A stretch of 32,523 nt of DNA from Comamonadaceae bacterium (lineage in GTDB: Bacteria > Pseudomonadota > Gammaproteobacteria > Burkholderiales > Burkholderiaceae_C): positions 1-32,523 of the forward strand of contig JAAOZX010000447.1 in assembly GCA_012274225.1 (NCBI GenBank), written 5' to 3'. The position numbers and the translations under genes are program-made. This document shows, piece by piece, positions 10,469-24,142 of the stretch. The stretch's first letter is position 1, and the number at the start of each line of letters is the position of its first letter. Under the pieces are notes generated by a model that worked only from the letters and a program-made list of their open reading frames with translations, had not been told where the DNA came from and did no database searches.

Positions 10469-10512
10469 CGGTTGCGGTCCGGCCGTCGATGATAGGCGCC
10501 GGAATCCACTGC

Positions 10513-10518
10513 TATAAT
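10513..10518 (+). promoter_or_regulatory. Probable -10 box of tRNA-Arg
   Basis: A perfect TATAAT lies 11 bp before the mature 5' end of the tRNA and is followed by a GC-rich discriminator, as expected for a stable-RNA promoter. No clear -35 box is seen. Confidence 0.6.
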
Positions 10519-10528
10519 CGCCCGCTCA

Positions 10529-10605
10529 GCGGCTGTAGCTCAGTTGGATAGAGTACTTGGCTACGAACCAAGGGGTCGTGGGTTCGAATCCTGCCAGCCG
10601 CACCA
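10529..10605 (+). tRNA. tRNA-Arg (anticodon ACG)
   Basis: All arms can be drawn: acceptor GCGGCTG / CAGCCGC, D-stem GCTC / GAGT (one G-T pair), anticodon stem CTTGG / CCAAG with loop CTACGAA giving anticodon ACG, T-stem GTGGG / CCTGC with loop TTCGAAT, and an encoded CCA end. It reads CGU and neighbouring Arg codons after A-to-I editing. Its last 47 bp are repeated exactly at 13159-13205, and its 3' end is the left junction of the inserted element described separately. The gene stays complete because the element brings an identical 3' end. Confidence 0.97.
10559..10605 (+). repeat. Left attachment-site repeat (47 bp, in tRNA-Arg 3' end)
   Basis: This segment runs from the anticodon stem through CCA and is identical over 47 bp to 13159-13205. 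Sequence outside the repeat differs on both sides. This is the typical size and place of a tyrosine-recombinase attachment site in a tRNA gene. Confidence 0.85.
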
Positions 10606-10622
10606 TATCAGGCAATGAAATC

Positions 10623-10656
10623 AAGGGCTTAGAGAGTGATCTCTGAGCCCTTTTCC
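10623..10656 (+). terminator. Intrinsic terminator after tRNA-Arg
   Basis: A 13-bp stem AAGGGCTTAGAGA / TCTCTGAGCCCTT with one T-G wobble and a GTGA loop is followed by TTCC-TTT. It lies 17 bp past the tRNA and belongs to the inserted element, replacing the terminator now at 13214-13249. Confidence 0.75.
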
Positions 10657-10779
10657 TTTGTCCTGTACGATAGATCGGCCGCTGTACGATTCAAGGCAGA
10701 TCTGGCGGTTGCCTCAAGTCGTCGTTCAAGGGTGACGATCGGGCCTCTTCCTCATCGAATAGCGTGGGGTGCGCCGGCC

Positions 10780-10829
10780 GCGGATTGAATATCCGCGTGT
10801 CGGCGGTTCGATTCCGCCCCAGGCCACCA
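10780..10829 (+). pseudogene. 3' half of a tRNA-Phe gene (fossil attachment site)
   Basis: The segment holds an anticodon arm GCGGA-TTGAATA-TCCGC (anticodon GAA), a variable region, a T-arm GGCGG-TTCGATT-CCGCC, the acceptor 3' strand CCAGGCC and ACCA. This is the 3' half of a bacterial tRNA-Phe. No acceptor 5' strand (GGCCTGG) or D-arm is found upstream, so no functional tRNA can form. Position 37 is T where tRNAs carry a purine, which also points to decay. Half-tRNAs of this type are left at or carried by integrating elements, so a second, different attachment site is implied. Confidence 0.85.
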
Positions 10830-10838
10830 GTCTCCAAG

Positions 10839-10872
10839 CGTCCCAGCGCCCGATTCGGGTTCTGGGGCGTTT
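10839..10872 (+). terminator. Terminator-like hairpin after the tRNA-Phe fragment
   Basis: CGTCCCAG (10839-10846) pairs with CTGGGGCG (10862-10869), enclosing an inner CCCGA-T-TCGGG hairpin, followed by TTT. Placed 10 bp after the tRNA-Phe CCA, it may be the former terminator of that tRNA gene carried along with it. Confidence 0.4.
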
Positions 10873-10905
10873 CTACAACTCCAGCCCTATTTCTACAGCT
10901 TTCCC

Positions 10906-10933
10906 TTGCGCCCCAGGGCCATTGCCGTAATAG
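10906..10933 (+). promoter_or_regulatory. Possible promoter of the small island gene
   Basis: TTGCGC (10906-10911) and TAATAG (10928-10933) are 16 bp apart, and TAGAAT overlaps the second box at 10931-10936. They lie about 30 bp before the GTG start with a strong ribosome site. The match is modest. Confidence 0.3.
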
Positions 10934-10959
10934 AATGATTTGATAGCTAGGAGGTGAAC

Positions 10960-11130
10960 GTGGCAACAGCTGAGTTTAAAGTGGTTGAAGACGCTCGCCG
11001 TGCAGTGAGAGGCCAGTTCCGCCACTACAACCAGGTTATGGCAAACACTCAGGTGGGCTCTGTTGGGTTGGTCCGCGTGGGGAAGTCGGACAAGAAGGCG
11101 GAACCCACTAAGCCAACAAACAAGAAATGA
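10960..11130 (+). CDS. Unknown small basic protein, 56 aa
   Basis: A GTG start at 10960 is preceded by a strong AGGAGGT ribosome site, and the frame ends at a TGA only 2 bp before a strong terminator. The product starts M-A-T-A-E-F-K-V-V-E-D-A-R-R-A-V, continues through a Q-F-R-H-Y-N-Q-V-M amphipathic helix and a short V-G-L-V-R-V-G strand, and ends in a tail rich in Lys, Pro and Thr (K-P-T-N-K-K). I recognise no family. The well-formed translation signals make it a real gene. Its place directly before the dGTPase gene suggests a regulator, antitoxin-like partner or leader peptide, but nothing in the sequence proves this. It is too short for many gene callers. Confidence 0.65.
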   Translation: MATAEFKVVEDARRAVRGQFRHYNQVMANTQVGSVGLVRVGKSDKKAEPTKPTNKK

Positions 11131-11132
11131 CG

Positions 11133-11159
11133 AAAAGCCACCACATAGGTGGCTTTTTT
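11133..11159 (+). terminator. Intrinsic terminator or attenuator before the dGTPase gene
   Basis: AAAAGCCACC and GGTGGCTTTTTT form a stem with an ACATA loop and a run of six T. It lies between the small gene and the dGTPase, ending only 3 bp before the dGTPase ribosome site. Transcripts from upstream should mostly stop here unless read-through is allowed, so it may gate dGTPase expression. Confidence 0.8.
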
Positions 11160-11175
11160 GTTGGGGAAGGCACAA

Positions 11176-12540
11176 GTGCTATACCGGCAAGAAGATCGCT
11201 TGCGCGTTCAAGCTGAGGTGGAAGAAGAGCATCTCGGGCGTTCACCATTTCGCCGTGACTTTGCGCGGTTACTTCACTCGCCAGCATTCCGTCGCCTTCA
11301 GGGAAAGACACAGCTCTTCCCAGGACACGAATCTGACTTCTTTAGAAACCGGCTCACCCACAGCCTGGAAGTCGGGCAGATCGGGAAGGGAATCGCGCAG
11401 GTAATTAACGCCACTAATCCGGCATTCAAGGATCAGAAGATTGATGTTGACCTAGTGGAGTTTGCGGGCTTGGCTCATGACTTGGGCCACCCTCCCTTCG
11501 GCCACAACGGCGAACATGCGCTCGATGACTGCATGAAGAAGAACGGCGGCTTCGAAGGTAACGCACAGACTTTGCGCATCCTGGCGAAGGTCGAAAAGAA
11601 AGTGCTACGCGAGGATCCTGCCGAAGACAGATGCGGCATTACCGAGCAAGGAATCGACCGTCGGTTGGGATTGAACTTGACTTACCGCAGCCTAGCGGCT
11701 GTGCTCAAGTATGACTACGCCATTCCACTGAAAAGGGTCAAGGCCGCGCCGCTGGACAAAGGCTACTACAGATCAGAGGGGGACTTGGTTGCCGCTATCA
11801 AAGATCACGTAGGCCTGCCAGCTGGCAAGGTGAAGTTCAAGACGATCGAATGTCAGATCATGGATATTGCCGACGACATAGCGTATTCGACGTACGACCT
11901 TGAAGATGCGATGAAGGGCGGTTTTGCCCACCCGTTGCAGCTTCTCACCCGAATAATGGGTGACAAGAAGCTGGTCGAAAAGCTGGTCGAAAAGGTTGGT
12001 AAAGAAGTGGACGGCGTGACTGACATCGAGGTTTATGCAGCGGTCGCCAGCTTGTGGCATTTAAACGAGGACAGTCCTGTACTCGAAGAGTACGCAGCGT
12101 CAAAGATGATCGCCTCAGACGCCAATATGAGATGCGAATTTTCGTCGAATTTGGTAAGCCAATTCATTGGTGGTGTACACGTTGTGCCTCGTAATGGTCA
12201 GCAACTTCGGTTTTCCGAGATTCAGGTTGATCGTGATGTCCGAATTAAGATTGAAACGCTGAAGCACCTCAACTACTTGATCACCATCATGTCGCCGAGG
12301 CTGAAGATGGTCGAATACCGAGGGTACGACGTCGTCCGAACCCTCTTCGAGACCCTCGATTCTGAAGAGGGGCATTTGCTTCTGCCCGATGACCTTCAAA
12401 AATTGTACGGGCGCTTACCTGACACGGACTCGAAGCGTCGACTCATCTGCGACTTTGTGGCAGGGATGACAGATCGATACGCGATCGAGTTCTACTCGCG
12501 CTTGACGGAGTCAGGCTCCACTATCTACAAGCCCCTATGA
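11176..12540 (+). CDS. dgt: dGTP triphosphohydrolase (HD domain), candidate anti-phage dGTPase, 454 aa
   Basis: The enzyme class hydrolyses dGTP (and sometimes other dNTPs) to nucleoside and triphosphate. The family signature F-R-R-L-Q-G-K-T-Q-L-F is followed by F-R-N-R-L-T-H-S-L-E-V with metal ligand His62, then A-H-D-L-G-H-P-P-F-G-H with His101-Asp102 and His110, and I-A-D-D-I-A-Y-S with the last Asp ligand near 233-234. Length fits Dgt-type enzymes. Start GTG 11176 is chosen because GGGGAAGG lies 5 bp before it; GTG 11149 would lie inside the terminator hairpin. Some Dgt homologues outside the core genome protect bacteria from phages by draining dGTP, and the island setting here fits that role. 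Housekeeping dNTP control is the alternative. Confidence 0.93.
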   Translation: MLYRQEDRLRVQAEVEEEHLGRSPFRRDFARLLHSPAFRRLQGKTQLFPGHESDFFRNRLTHSLEVGQIGKGIAQVINATNPAFKDQKIDVDLVEFAGLAHDLGHPPFGHNGEHALDDCMKKNGGFEGNAQTLRILAKVEKKVLREDPAEDRCGITEQGIDRRLGLNLTYRSLAAVLKYDYAIPLKRVKAAPLDKGYYRSEGDLVAAIKDHVGLPAGKVKFKTIECQIMDIADDIAYSTYDLEDAMKGGFAHPLQLLTRIMGDKKLVEKLVEKVGKEVDGVTDIEVYAAVASLWHLNEDSPVLEEYAASKMIASDANMRCEFSSNLVSQFIGGVHVVPRNGQQLRFSEIQVDRDVRIKIETLKHLNYLITIMSPRLKMVEYRGYDVVRTLFETLDSEEGHLLLPDDLQKLYGRLPDTDSKRRLICDFVAGMTDRYAIEFYSRLTESGSTIYKPL

Positions 12541-12930
12541 GACAACTAGCGAAGTGGCTTTACCGTTGGTGATGTGCCAAGCCTGGGGAAGAGGGAGGCG
12601 GCGGCCAGGCTAGAGGCTCTTGATCGCTGATACAGCAGGGTCGCGCGTACGACCTCCAGTTTCAGGTTCCGTCTGAGCGAGATGTCCAAGAAGCCGGCAG
12701 CAGCAGCCCAGGATTACTCCTGACTCCTTAGGTTCTCTCTGGCAATTCAGCCTTGGATCAAGGTGGTCGACTTTTGACTAACTTTCGCCACGTCAAAACG
12801 TCGAGAACGGAATCCGCTTGCACCTTTCTTTTGGGTGCCATGCATCGTCGAGGCCTTGCCGCTGCTCACGAGATTGCGCATACATCACTCGGACGGCCAG
12901 ATTGCCGGCGTGGTATAGCCAAGCCGCGAA

Positions 12931-13020
12931 TACAACCTCTTCGTCGACCAGAACCCCGCACTTCGAGGCGACCCCCGCTACGTCCGGCTCATGGACATCG
13001 TGCGACAGCACGGGCTTTAG
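12931..13020 (+). pseudogene. Possible C-terminal remnant of a lost gene
   Basis: The frame reads about 29 residues, Y-N-L-F-V-D-Q-N-P-A-L-R-G-D-P-R-Y-V-R-L then M-D-I-V-R-Q-H-G-L and a stop, which looks like the end of a real protein (an L-R-x-D-P-R-Y ending is common in TPR-type proteins). An in-frame stop at 12916 cuts it off upstream. The antisense frame is also open, so the coding strand is not certain. Confidence 0.3.
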
Positions 13021-13059
13021 CGCATTCAGCTGTACCACCGCCCAATAGCTGTCCGTTAG

Positions 13060-13129
13060 AAATCAAGCACTTAGCCGAGTCCAACCTGAGACGCTGTGGT
13101 ACCGCCAAATGGTCTCAAGTGCTTGATTT
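13060..13129. repeat. 13-bp perfect inverted repeat near the right junction
   Basis: AAATCAAGCACTT at 13060-13072 and AAGTGCTTGATTT at 13117-13129 are exact inverted copies 44 bp apart. Inside are a weaker GAGAC / GTCTC pair and a GGTACC palindrome. The outer arms end 29 bp before the right attachment repeat. This could be a recombinase or regulator site or a structured RNA. Confidence 0.6.
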
Positions 13130-13158
13130 GCTGAGAGATTCTGGTAATGAGTTGATCC

Positions 13159-13205
13159 GGCTACGAACCAAGGGGTCGTGGGTTCGAATCCTGCCAGCCG
13201 CACCA
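13159..13205 (+). repeat. Right attachment-site repeat (47 bp, tRNA-Arg 3' fragment)
   Basis: This is an exact copy of 10559-10605, from the anticodon stem to CCA, without acceptor 5' strand or D-arm upstream. It is thus not a tRNA gene but the displaced 3' end of the original target. Confidence 0.9.
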
Positions 13206-13213
13206 ACAATGAC

Positions 13214-13249
13214 AAGAGTCAGTAGCTAATTGGCTACTGACTCTTTTTT
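13214..13249 (+). terminator. Strong intrinsic terminator, probably the original tRNA-Arg terminator
   Basis: A perfect 13-bp stem AAGAGTCAGTAGC / GCTACTGACTCTT with a 6-nt loop is followed by a T-run. It lies 8 bp past the right tRNA fragment, where the terminator of the uninterrupted tRNA gene would have been. Confidence 0.85.
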
Positions 13250-13324
13250 GTTCCTGGAGCGAGGGCTCGTCGGGTCATCGCTTGGCGGCGTGCGGGCTGG
13301 CGTTGGCGATGCGCCGCGGAGCCC

Positions 13325-23236: not shown

Positions 23237-24142
23237 ATGAAATTCTCAGTCTTCCAGATCAGCCGCAAAGGCGGACGGGAAAAGAACGAGGACCGGATGG
23301 GCTATTGCTACACCCGCGAATCGGGCCTGTTCGTGCTGGCCGACGGCATGGGCGGGCATCCGGAAGGCGAGGTGGCGGCCCAGCTGGCGCTGCAGACCAT
23401 TTCGGCCCTCTACCAGAAGGAGGCCAGGCCGCTGGTTGGCGACGTGACCGAGTTCCTCTCGACGTCGCTGATGGCCGCGCATCACCAGATCATCCGCTAC
23501 GCCGGTGAAAAGGGCATGCTCGACACGCCGCGCACCACGCTGGTGGCCTGCATCGTTCAAGGCACCTCGGCCACCTGGGTGCATTGCGGCGATTCGCGCC
23601 TGTATCTGGTGCGCGCGGGCGAACTGCTCACGCGCACGCGCGACCATTCCTATCTGGAGCAGCAAAGCGCTGCGGGCGCGGCCCGCACCGACCGGATCAA
23701 CCGCAACATCCTGTTCACCTGCCTGGGCTCGCCCAACAAACCGGTCTTCGACATCACCGGCCCGGTCACGCTGCAGCAGGGCGACAAGATCATGCTGTGC
23801 TCGGACGGCCTTTGGAGCGGCCTCAGCGATGCCGACATCCTGCGTGACCTGGCATCCAAGCCGGTGTCCGATTCGGTGCCCGACCTGGTCGAGGCGGCCC
23901 TGCGCGACGGCGGCGAACACAGCGACAACGTCACCGTCATCGCGCTCGAATGGGAAACGCCTGACTCGTTCGAATCGACGCGCGGCATCTCCACCGACAG
24001 CATCATGGACGGCGTGTTCGCCTCCACCATCCAGGCCGGTGTGCTCGACACCATGGTCGAGGACCTCGACGATGCGGCAATCGAAAAATCCATCGCCGAG
24101 ATCAACGAGGCCATCCGCCGCTCGGCCGCACGCAGAAGTTGA
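23237..24142 (+). CDS. PP2C-family serine/threonine phosphatase, 301 aa
   Basis: This Mn2+/Mg2+-dependent phosphatase keeps the metal ligands: N-E-D-R with Asp19, V-L-A-D-G-M-G-G with Asp36-Gly37, C-S-D-G-L-W with Asp190 and H-S-D-N-V-T with Asp230. A C-terminal extension of about 60 acidic residues follows the catalytic core and has no recognisable domain. GGAGG stands a few bases before the ATG. It very likely reverses the action of the kinase encoded just upstream. Confidence 0.95.

Follow-up and report, generated by a model that had tools for sequence, protein, structure and literature searches.

A small tRNA-Arg island without an integrase carries an anti-phage-type dGTPase preceded by a recurrent small gene and hairpin

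Cis-mobilizable elements (CIMEs) are elements that lack integration and transfer genes and retain both attachment (att) sites, attL and attR (PMC5704250, drawn on in excerpt, like PMC3146451, PMC12265719, PMC10511110 and PMC12409349 below). In Dehalococcoides, islands follow one another at a single RNA gene, ssrA, and are bordered by its 3' repeat; 16 of these 31 islands have an integration module (excerpt of PMC3146451). Here we describe a 2.6-kb island in a 32,523-nucleotide stretch of Comamonadaceae DNA (contig JAAOZX010000447.1 of assembly GCA_012274225.1, positions 1 to 32,523; hereinafter the window). The island is inserted site-specifically at tRNA-Arg(ACG), has no integrase, and carries a dGTP triphosphohydrolase (dGTPase). 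The best description of the island is that of a CIME-like remnant, an element of a known kind whose att history is here unusual and composite. Like a CIME, it keeps attL and attR (a 47/47 repeat matched by an empty site in a relative), its integration and transfer genes were not found, and it lies at a tRNA where other elements integrate. It differs from a CIME in measuring only 2.6 kb, in holding a nested att-like module of a second tRNA and in having no visible accreted partner; its descent from an integrative and conjugative or integrative and mobilizable element is not established, and its right arm matches nothing informative. The Dehalococcoides islands, as far as the excerpt describes them, differ in their serine recombinases, reductive dehalogenase cargo and transfer-messenger RNA target.

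The borders of the island are defined by a direct repeat. Positions 10559-10605 and 13159-13205 are identical at 47 of 47 positions with a spacing of 2600 (repeat search; BLAST E 8e-19), and 80 bases of the left junction match the window's own genome (G000, 518 contigs, 82% complete; the window is contig C23) at these two places only. Because ARAGORN reports a single complete tRNA in the window, tRNA-Arg(ACG) at 10529-10605, the right copy represents only the 3' part of this tRNA, from the anticodon stem on. The G+C content is 0.50-0.57 in 500-base windows fully inside the interval, compared with 0.60-0.72 away from it. A terminator-like hairpin follows each repeat copy, one on the element side and one on the chromosome side. 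The original prediction, made from the letters alone, had described an exact 47-bp recurrence of the tRNA-Arg 3' end 2.6 kb downstream, an A/T-richer interval, the likely original tRNA terminator behind the second copy, and a content of one enzyme and one small protein without a recombinase; each of these claims is borne out here or below. The border features are as follows.

10529..10605, + strand: complete tRNA-Arg(ACG), the integration target (ARAGORN; Rfam tRNA, 66.2 bits)
10559..10605, + strand: left 47-bp repeat copy, attL core (47/47 identical to the right copy)
10623..10652, + strand: element-side terminator hairpin after the left copy (terminator scan, junction comparison)
12541..13158, + strand: right arm with no convincing gene, holding an inverted repeat at 13060-13072 / 13117-13129 (open reading frame list, repeat search)
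13159..13205, + strand: right 47-bp repeat copy, attR core (repeat search)
13214..13245, + strand: chromosomal tRNA terminator displaced to the right end (terminator scan; by inspection, a similar hairpin directly follows the tRNA in the relative G005)

An empty site is present in a congener, as had been proposed for checking the insertion. We compared 30 tRNA-Arg loci of the genus, namely the window and 29 relatives, with up to 1.5 kb of flank each (G, C and L labels denote genomes, contigs and loci). Only one relative, G005, combines both flanking genes in their order with a single intact tRNA and no insert. Specifically, its left flank, the end of the upstream dehydrogenase, is 78.8% identical over 477 bp; the single tRNA is followed by a terminator hairpin; the match to the downstream gene spans 400 bp at 85% identity; and the gap between tRNA and right-flank match is 130 bp, compared with 120 bp from the window's right copy. 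The gene upstream of the window's tRNA-Arg encodes a 2-hydroxyacid dehydrogenase (Pfam), and the gene downstream of the island looks like a response regulator by inspection only. In G062 the same downstream gene lies ~560 bp from its tRNA with an unrelated open reading frame (ORF) in between. The remaining 27 loci are uninformative for this site, having other neighbours or, in G030 and G009, short matches in another arrangement.

The same tRNA also receives other cargo in relatives, as had likewise been anticipated. A search of 60 genomes of the genus including G000 gave a match in 59, and the following tallies are lower bounds among the matches listed. At least four congeners carry other inserts, recognised because the tRNA-Arg 3' end recurs further downstream on the contig that holds the intact gene, at 3.3 kb in G081, 5.6 kb in G008, 7.5 kb in G078 (93% over 45 bp) and 11.4 kb in G027 (36 bp). 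The two cargo genes of the G081 insert (L063 3742-6986) give partial-length matches to AriA and AriB of PARIS, the ATPase also matching PtuA models, and four cargo genes of the G008 insert encode a RibD_C protein, a major facilitator superfamily transporter, a TetR regulator and a SnoaL-like protein. More tRNA-Arg 3' fragments lie on other contigs of G034, G016, G002 and G008. Most fragments in relatives end at the anticodon stem, as the window's repeats do; the anticodon stem is a usual tyrosine-integrase boundary. On contig C7 of G034, an intact integrase abuts tRNA-Arg and the junction sequence resembles the window's left junction. The motif ATCAAGG.CTTAG, which starts the window's element-side hairpin, is found behind this tRNA and also behind tRNA-Arg in some genomes without a demonstrated island. 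On contig C5 of G034, a different contig from that with the intact tRNA-Arg, three tRNA-Arg 3' fragments lie 16-19 kb apart (L067-L069), suggesting tandem islands. The letters of a 13-nt perfect inverted repeat in the window's right arm, AAATCAAGCACTT/AAGTGCTTGATTT at 13060-13129, also open the stretch behind a tRNA-Arg fragment on this contig, and are perhaps a leftover element end.

No integrase was found in the interval. An integrase profile, made from as many as ten integrases identified in this analysis, matched none of the island's ORFs at E up to 1; its matches in the stop-to-stop segments of the island's two arms were no better than E 0.37, and tblastn with two integrases found at tRNA-Arg in relatives gave no match in the interval. 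No transfer gene was noted in the island by inspection of its ORFs and a Pfam search of the two cargo ORFs only. The profile also found no intact integrase in the G081, G008, G078 and G027 inserts. Instead, the G081 insert holds a truncated one, a 158-aa C-terminus (Pfam Phage_integrase, 30.2 bits), and a dGTPase unit at tRNA-Lys in G265 holds an open 73-aa piece of an integrase C-terminus (Pfam, 28.8 bits). G081 and G265 appear as islands caught midway, and point to decay of integrase-bearing islands rather than to a specialised minimal mobile unit. The original interpretation as a minimal form of mobile cargo, perhaps moved in trans, is supported in part.

In our judgement the island is probably a CIME-like remnant, a tyrosine-recombinase island that lost its integrase and kept its borders and its cargo, a two-gene dGTPase module with a tRNA-Phe past. 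A tyrosine-recombinase element would have entered the 3' half of tRNA-Arg(ACG), leaving the whole tRNA on the left and the 47-bp copy on the right, and a later deletion would have removed the integrase, with the att borders and cargo left in place. We infer that an integrase was formerly present here and then deleted.

A second tRNA has left its trace inside the island. The left arm contains two features that precede the cargo.

10777..10829, + strand: 3' part of tRNA-Phe from the anticodon stem on, a second, nested att-like module (similarity to C248 and L124)
10838..10877, + strand: hairpin of the tRNA-Phe module, common to L124 and C248 (read from the sequence; absent from the terminator scan list)

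The tRNA-Phe locus of the window's own genome, on contig C248, matches the module at 90% over 84 bp, reaching into the hairpin/terminator, and the complete tRNA-Phe locus of Polaromonas sp. AET17H-212 (L124) matches it at 91.8% over 97 bp. The order in this Polaromonas is intact tRNA-Phe, module, homologous small ORF, hairpin and homologous dGTPase. The parts shared by L124 and the window are module, small ORF and dGTPase; for the right arm, neither L124 nor the other loci compared gave a match, and a comparison with 58 congeners gave two 56-bp matches and nothing informative. The sequence thus presents the island as a composite in which 10777-10877 is a tRNA-Phe att-like module. Because the tRNA-Phe 3' part and terminator remain at the left edge of the cargo, we take the cargo to have been associated with a tRNA-Phe site, either earlier than its insertion at tRNA-Arg or alongside it. 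A comparable order is seen on contig C12 of G008 (L075 6924-7286), where a 23-bp tRNA-Phe end follows a tRNA-Arg 3' fragment at a distance of ~300 bp. Just behind the Polaromonas dGTPase, a weak match to the integrase profile was noted (L124 7426-7725; 11.2 bits, E 0.0038).

The cargo consists of a small ORF, a hairpin and a dGTPase of the anti-phage type.

10960..11130, + strand: small ORF of 56 aa with a GTG start (relatives lie directly upstream of homologous dGTPases)
11133..11159, + strand: predicted intrinsic-terminator hairpin GCCACC/GGTGGC with six T (fold -17.6 kcal/mol, z -3.0)
11176..12540, + strand: dGTP triphosphohydrolase, anti-phage type (PADLOC, TIGR01353, Pfam HD and HD_assoc)

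The dGTPase ORF has 463 codons and is open from 11149; GTG at 11176 is the start that aligns with relatives. It matches PADLOC dGTPase at 1.6e-120 and TIGR01353 with 344.7 bits, above the cut-off, and has the Pfam HD and HD_assoc domains of an HD-domain dNTPase. A second ORF of the dGTPase family in G000 (385 aa, contig C388) is of the kind present in most relatives. Close homologues of the window protein (E 1e-80 or better, the window's own genome counted each time) are sparse: in samples of 399 genomes from the order, 399 from the family and 369 from the class, they occur in 4, 5 and 4 genomes, respectively. The species collection yielded 30 dGTPase loci, and phage, plasmid and viral collections held distant relatives only (three plasmid records at E 1e-60, two phage records at 1e-30 and one viral contig). 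The cargo would act in phage defence by draining dGTP.

Known dGTPase defence systems resemble this cargo in part. The anti-phage dGTPase of PADLOC (NF041026) is likewise an HD-domain dGTPase of the same PADLOC family. Clover, described in the excerpt of PMC12265719 as the dGTPase CloA with CloB, is also a two-gene dGTPase system. There, CloB restrains the enzyme; restraint by the small ORF here would be a guess. According to that excerpt, CloB is a nucleotidyltransferase, whereas the neighbour of the window's dGTPase is a 56-aa ORF without a known domain. The available part of PMC10511110 reports that phage-induced transcriptional shut-off activates defence dGTPases, calls it unclear whether these form a toxin-antitoxin system, and states that a Rho-independent terminator is typical between toxin and antitoxin genes in other such systems, with none predicted between avcI and avcD. 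For dGTPases, a sensing mechanism of the kind used by the RNA-guarded dCTP deaminase has been put forward as a hypothesis (excerpt of PMC12409349). In a literature search of partial coverage, no title or abstract dealt with a small partner gene or a terminator of defence dGTPases.

The hairpin lies between the stop of the small ORF and the start of the dGTPase, and its position recurs in relatives. A strict hairpin plus T-run is found 3-40 nt before the dGTPase start in 11 of the 14 near relatives' loci, compared with five among 360 control genes and none among 13 housekeeping dGTPases; when the count was repeated, the result was again 11 of 14, with none among 17 housekeeping genes. Control starts are the first start codon of each ORF, which is cruder than for the dGTPases, and the sequences are uncorrected for relatedness. 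A sixth control match (L171 7872-9287) is itself a dGTPase and was left out; L147, whose upstream sequence equals that of L169, is counted once, and the fragment L152 was not used. The exceptions are L166, with a hairpin lacking the T-run, and L062 and L170, without a hairpin. The stems differ among relatives (GCCACC, GCCGAT, GGCCAA, GGCCGAC), and therefore position and kind of structure are what is kept. In the window only 16 nt separate the T-run from the dGTPase start, so dGTPase transcripts presumably pass the hairpin. The terminator scan lists this hairpin on the - strand only, and a scan of 10500-13300 gave no sigma-70-like promoter.

The small ORF also recurs. It has no match in Pfam, NCBIfam, PADLOC or PHROGs. 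We built a profile from six upstream small ORFs and ran it on 3392 small ORFs from other loci. ORFs directly upstream of a dGTPase came out at the top (L125, 1.4e-14; L166, 2.4e-5; L167, 7.5e-4); below them, at E 0.6 and worse, upstream and other ORFs were mixed. Profile members were picked by position, which favours this result; the rank test leaves each tested member out. In that test, the upstream ORF came first among all small ORFs of the locus at 9 of 11 near loci and at 12 of 17 distant ones (21 of 28 in total), and E was below 0.01 in eight and seven of these, respectively. The near group omits L168 and L170, and L125 entered the six-ORF search only; the distant group omits L134, L137, L139, L146, L148, L149 and L159-L161, where the small ORF is absent or unlike. 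Three of 14 near relatives and seven of 23 distant ones have a lysine/arginine-rich tail as defined by our rule, compared with 7 of 249 controls and with none in the two other dGTPase sets (30 and 17 members). Between the window and L124 the small ORF shows 8, 3 and 12 changes at codon positions 1, 2 and 3 over 28 codons, as in coding DNA. The order small ORF, hairpin, dGTPase is shown by these sequences to recur in relatives. The empty site and the other cargo at the same tRNA agree with the island proposed by the original prediction, which had missed the nested tRNA-Phe module and this conserved cargo layout.

Several observations weigh against the CIME-like remnant and its two-gene module as set out above. 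No integrase remnant was recognised in the island itself, and the loss of an integrase there is for this reason argued by analogy. The right border of the G034 C7 integrase island was not located, and a right tRNA-Phe end was found neither in the window nor in the L124 Polaromonas. The dGTPase scores 373.4 bits against NF041026 antiphage_dGTPase, below its cut-off of 400. The hairpin is found in only 2 of 23 distant relatives and in none of the 30 NF041026-type loci examined (of 49 matches), which also sets the window's gene apart from that type, and the fold is unexceptional in L061 (z -0.60) and L123 (z -1.07). The small-ORF link is weak or fails in L062 (ninth), L171 (second) and five distant loci (second to ninth). 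By the same rule, 89 of 249 control genes have a small ORF upstream, as do 12 of 17 housekeeping dGTPases, and the mere presence of such an ORF was rejected as standalone evidence for this reason.

The layout resembles a toxin-antitoxin locus. Like type III systems (ToxIN, AvcID), it has a small upstream gene in the place of the antitoxin, a downstream enzyme and a predicted terminator (hairpin plus T-run) between the two, and AvcD also attacks the nucleotide pool. It differs in that the type III antitoxin is a non-coding RNA, usually made of repeats, whereas the window's upstream gene looks protein-coding; upstream of the dGTPase we found no repeat array (repeat search) and no Rfam match except tRNA. 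In the proposed module of small basic-tailed protein, intrinsic terminator and anti-phage-type dGTPase, the terminator would keep the enzyme scarce relative to the small protein, and the latter may be a labile inhibitor or regulator that is lost when a phage shuts off host transcription. We tentatively consider, as a possibility rather than an expectation, that this is an undescribed, widely spread toxin-antitoxin-like defence module, in which loss of the small protein or terminator read-through frees the dGTPase, and which persists and spreads as a minimal tRNA-att unit after integrase loss. The small ORF is inferred from these comparisons as a candidate inhibitor of defence dGTPases; a small gene and hairpin recurring beside one dGTPase subfamily make this candidate concrete. 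The cargo is the part of the island that deserves follow-up, with the switch function taken as a hypothesis.

It is somewhat unlikely that the small ORF and hairpin are instead the tail of an unrelated upstream gene without regulatory meaning, the dGTPase being a constitutive single-gene defence. The general frequency of small ORFs upstream of genes, the three near loci without hairpin or T-run and the lack of the hairpin in most distant relatives would fit such a tail; the excess of hairpins with T-run over control genes, built from stems of differing sequence, and the first rank of the small ORF in most loci tested argue for a kept arrangement.

Related dGTPases lie in other tRNA-bounded units. 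We scanned 38 dGTPase loci, whose flanks differ in length, for repeats and tRNAs. A complete tRNA lies within reach in seven, and in five of the seven a tRNA 3' repeat lies on the far side of the dGTPase. Besides the window unit (tRNA-Arg, 47/47), these are G026 (tRNA-Met, 47/47 of which 45 are tRNA, 6.5 kb), G265 (tRNA-Lys, 39/40, 2.5 kb), L143 of Flavobacteriales (tRNA-Leu, 27/27 of which 22 are tRNA, 1.8 kb, dGTPase plus small ORF) and L135 of Chitinophagaceae (tRNA-Asp, 19/19, 10 kb, with an integrase-like ORF). Type I restriction genes also lie in the G026 unit, namely HsdM, HsdS and an HsdR that measures only 392 aa. Neither the G026 nor the L143 unit gave an integrase. No right copy was seen for L124 (tRNA-Phe) on the DNA examined or for L140 (tRNA-Ser). 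Integrase matches at 1e-5 or better lie within the flanks of 4 of the 38 loci (L133, L135, L140 and L167). A 3-kb repeat test gave five dGTPase loci with a repeat (window, L062, L143, L151, L170) and eight control matches; this control is biased because at least five of the eight lie in loci already known for repeats or islands. In four genomes (window, G026, G265 and L143) a dGTPase is thus flanked by tRNA repeats while the integrase is broken or was not found, and a defence gene can outlive its carrier. New here are the composite island with a tRNA-Phe module, the small ORF-hairpin-dGTPase layout and the dGTPases in other tRNA-bounded units.

These units could also be active non-autonomous elements that hop among tRNA genes, their att sites used in trans by the integrase of another element. 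We regard this as clearly unlikely. The window's repeats are exact and undecayed, homologous dGTPases lie beside five further tRNA types (Met, Lys, Leu and Asp, each with a repeat, and Phe, which lacks a right copy), the smallest units measure 1.8-2.6 kb, and the window, G026 and L143 units gave no integrase, nor did the G008, G078 and G027 inserts with other cargo; all of this would suit mobility in trans. The integrase remnants of G265 and G081 point to decay instead, L135 retains its integrase-like ORF, and exact repeats would speak for youth rather than activity. A search of the rest of the genome for an integrase, as originally suggested, gave 12 integrase-domain matches in G000, nine of them in three contigs with three each, but only a 20.9-bit match over 51 residues to the G034 tRNA-Arg integrase. 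Because the assembly is 82% complete, an own-genome integrase acting in trans may have been missed.

Arrival of the cargo by homologous recombination between existing att fragments, for example after natural transformation and with no site-specific step for the unit, is quite improbable. Other tRNA-Arg inserts offer matching ends, and in G052 two copies of a Mg-chelatase-like gene end (363 bp, 87% identical; L062 7461-7823 and 9816-10178) enclose the dGTPase, an arrangement that looks like homologous exchange or a different target. The repeats of the window end at the anticodon stem, as do most fragments of relatives, and its arms lack convincing homology to other inserts; both speak for a site-specific step. 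Tandem tRNA genes exist in general, and a right copy that is a decayed second tRNA gene of a tandem duplication is extremely improbable and was rejected because the empty site of G005 has a single tRNA, the copy is perfect over 47 bp with the other 30 bp absent, and the interval is A+T-rich with a gene set absent from the G005 site.

The Mg-chelatase-like gene of G052, which we take to be of the YifB/ComM type, perhaps marks another kind of target-gene insertion. Direct repeats also flank the dGTPase in L151 (201-630 and 2861-3290, 72% over 430 bp) and L171 (2527-2615 and 9340-9428, 88% over 89 bp). Elsewhere in G000, contigs C24, C55 and C306 (L003-L008) each hold three neighbouring tyrosine-recombinase matches; these clusters resemble recombinase-in-trio elements. 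On contig C113 (~23388-23821; L079), ~50 bp separate a short integrase-domain piece (open frame of at most 131 aa) from a complete tRNA-Asn; this may be a further decayed tRNA island of G000.

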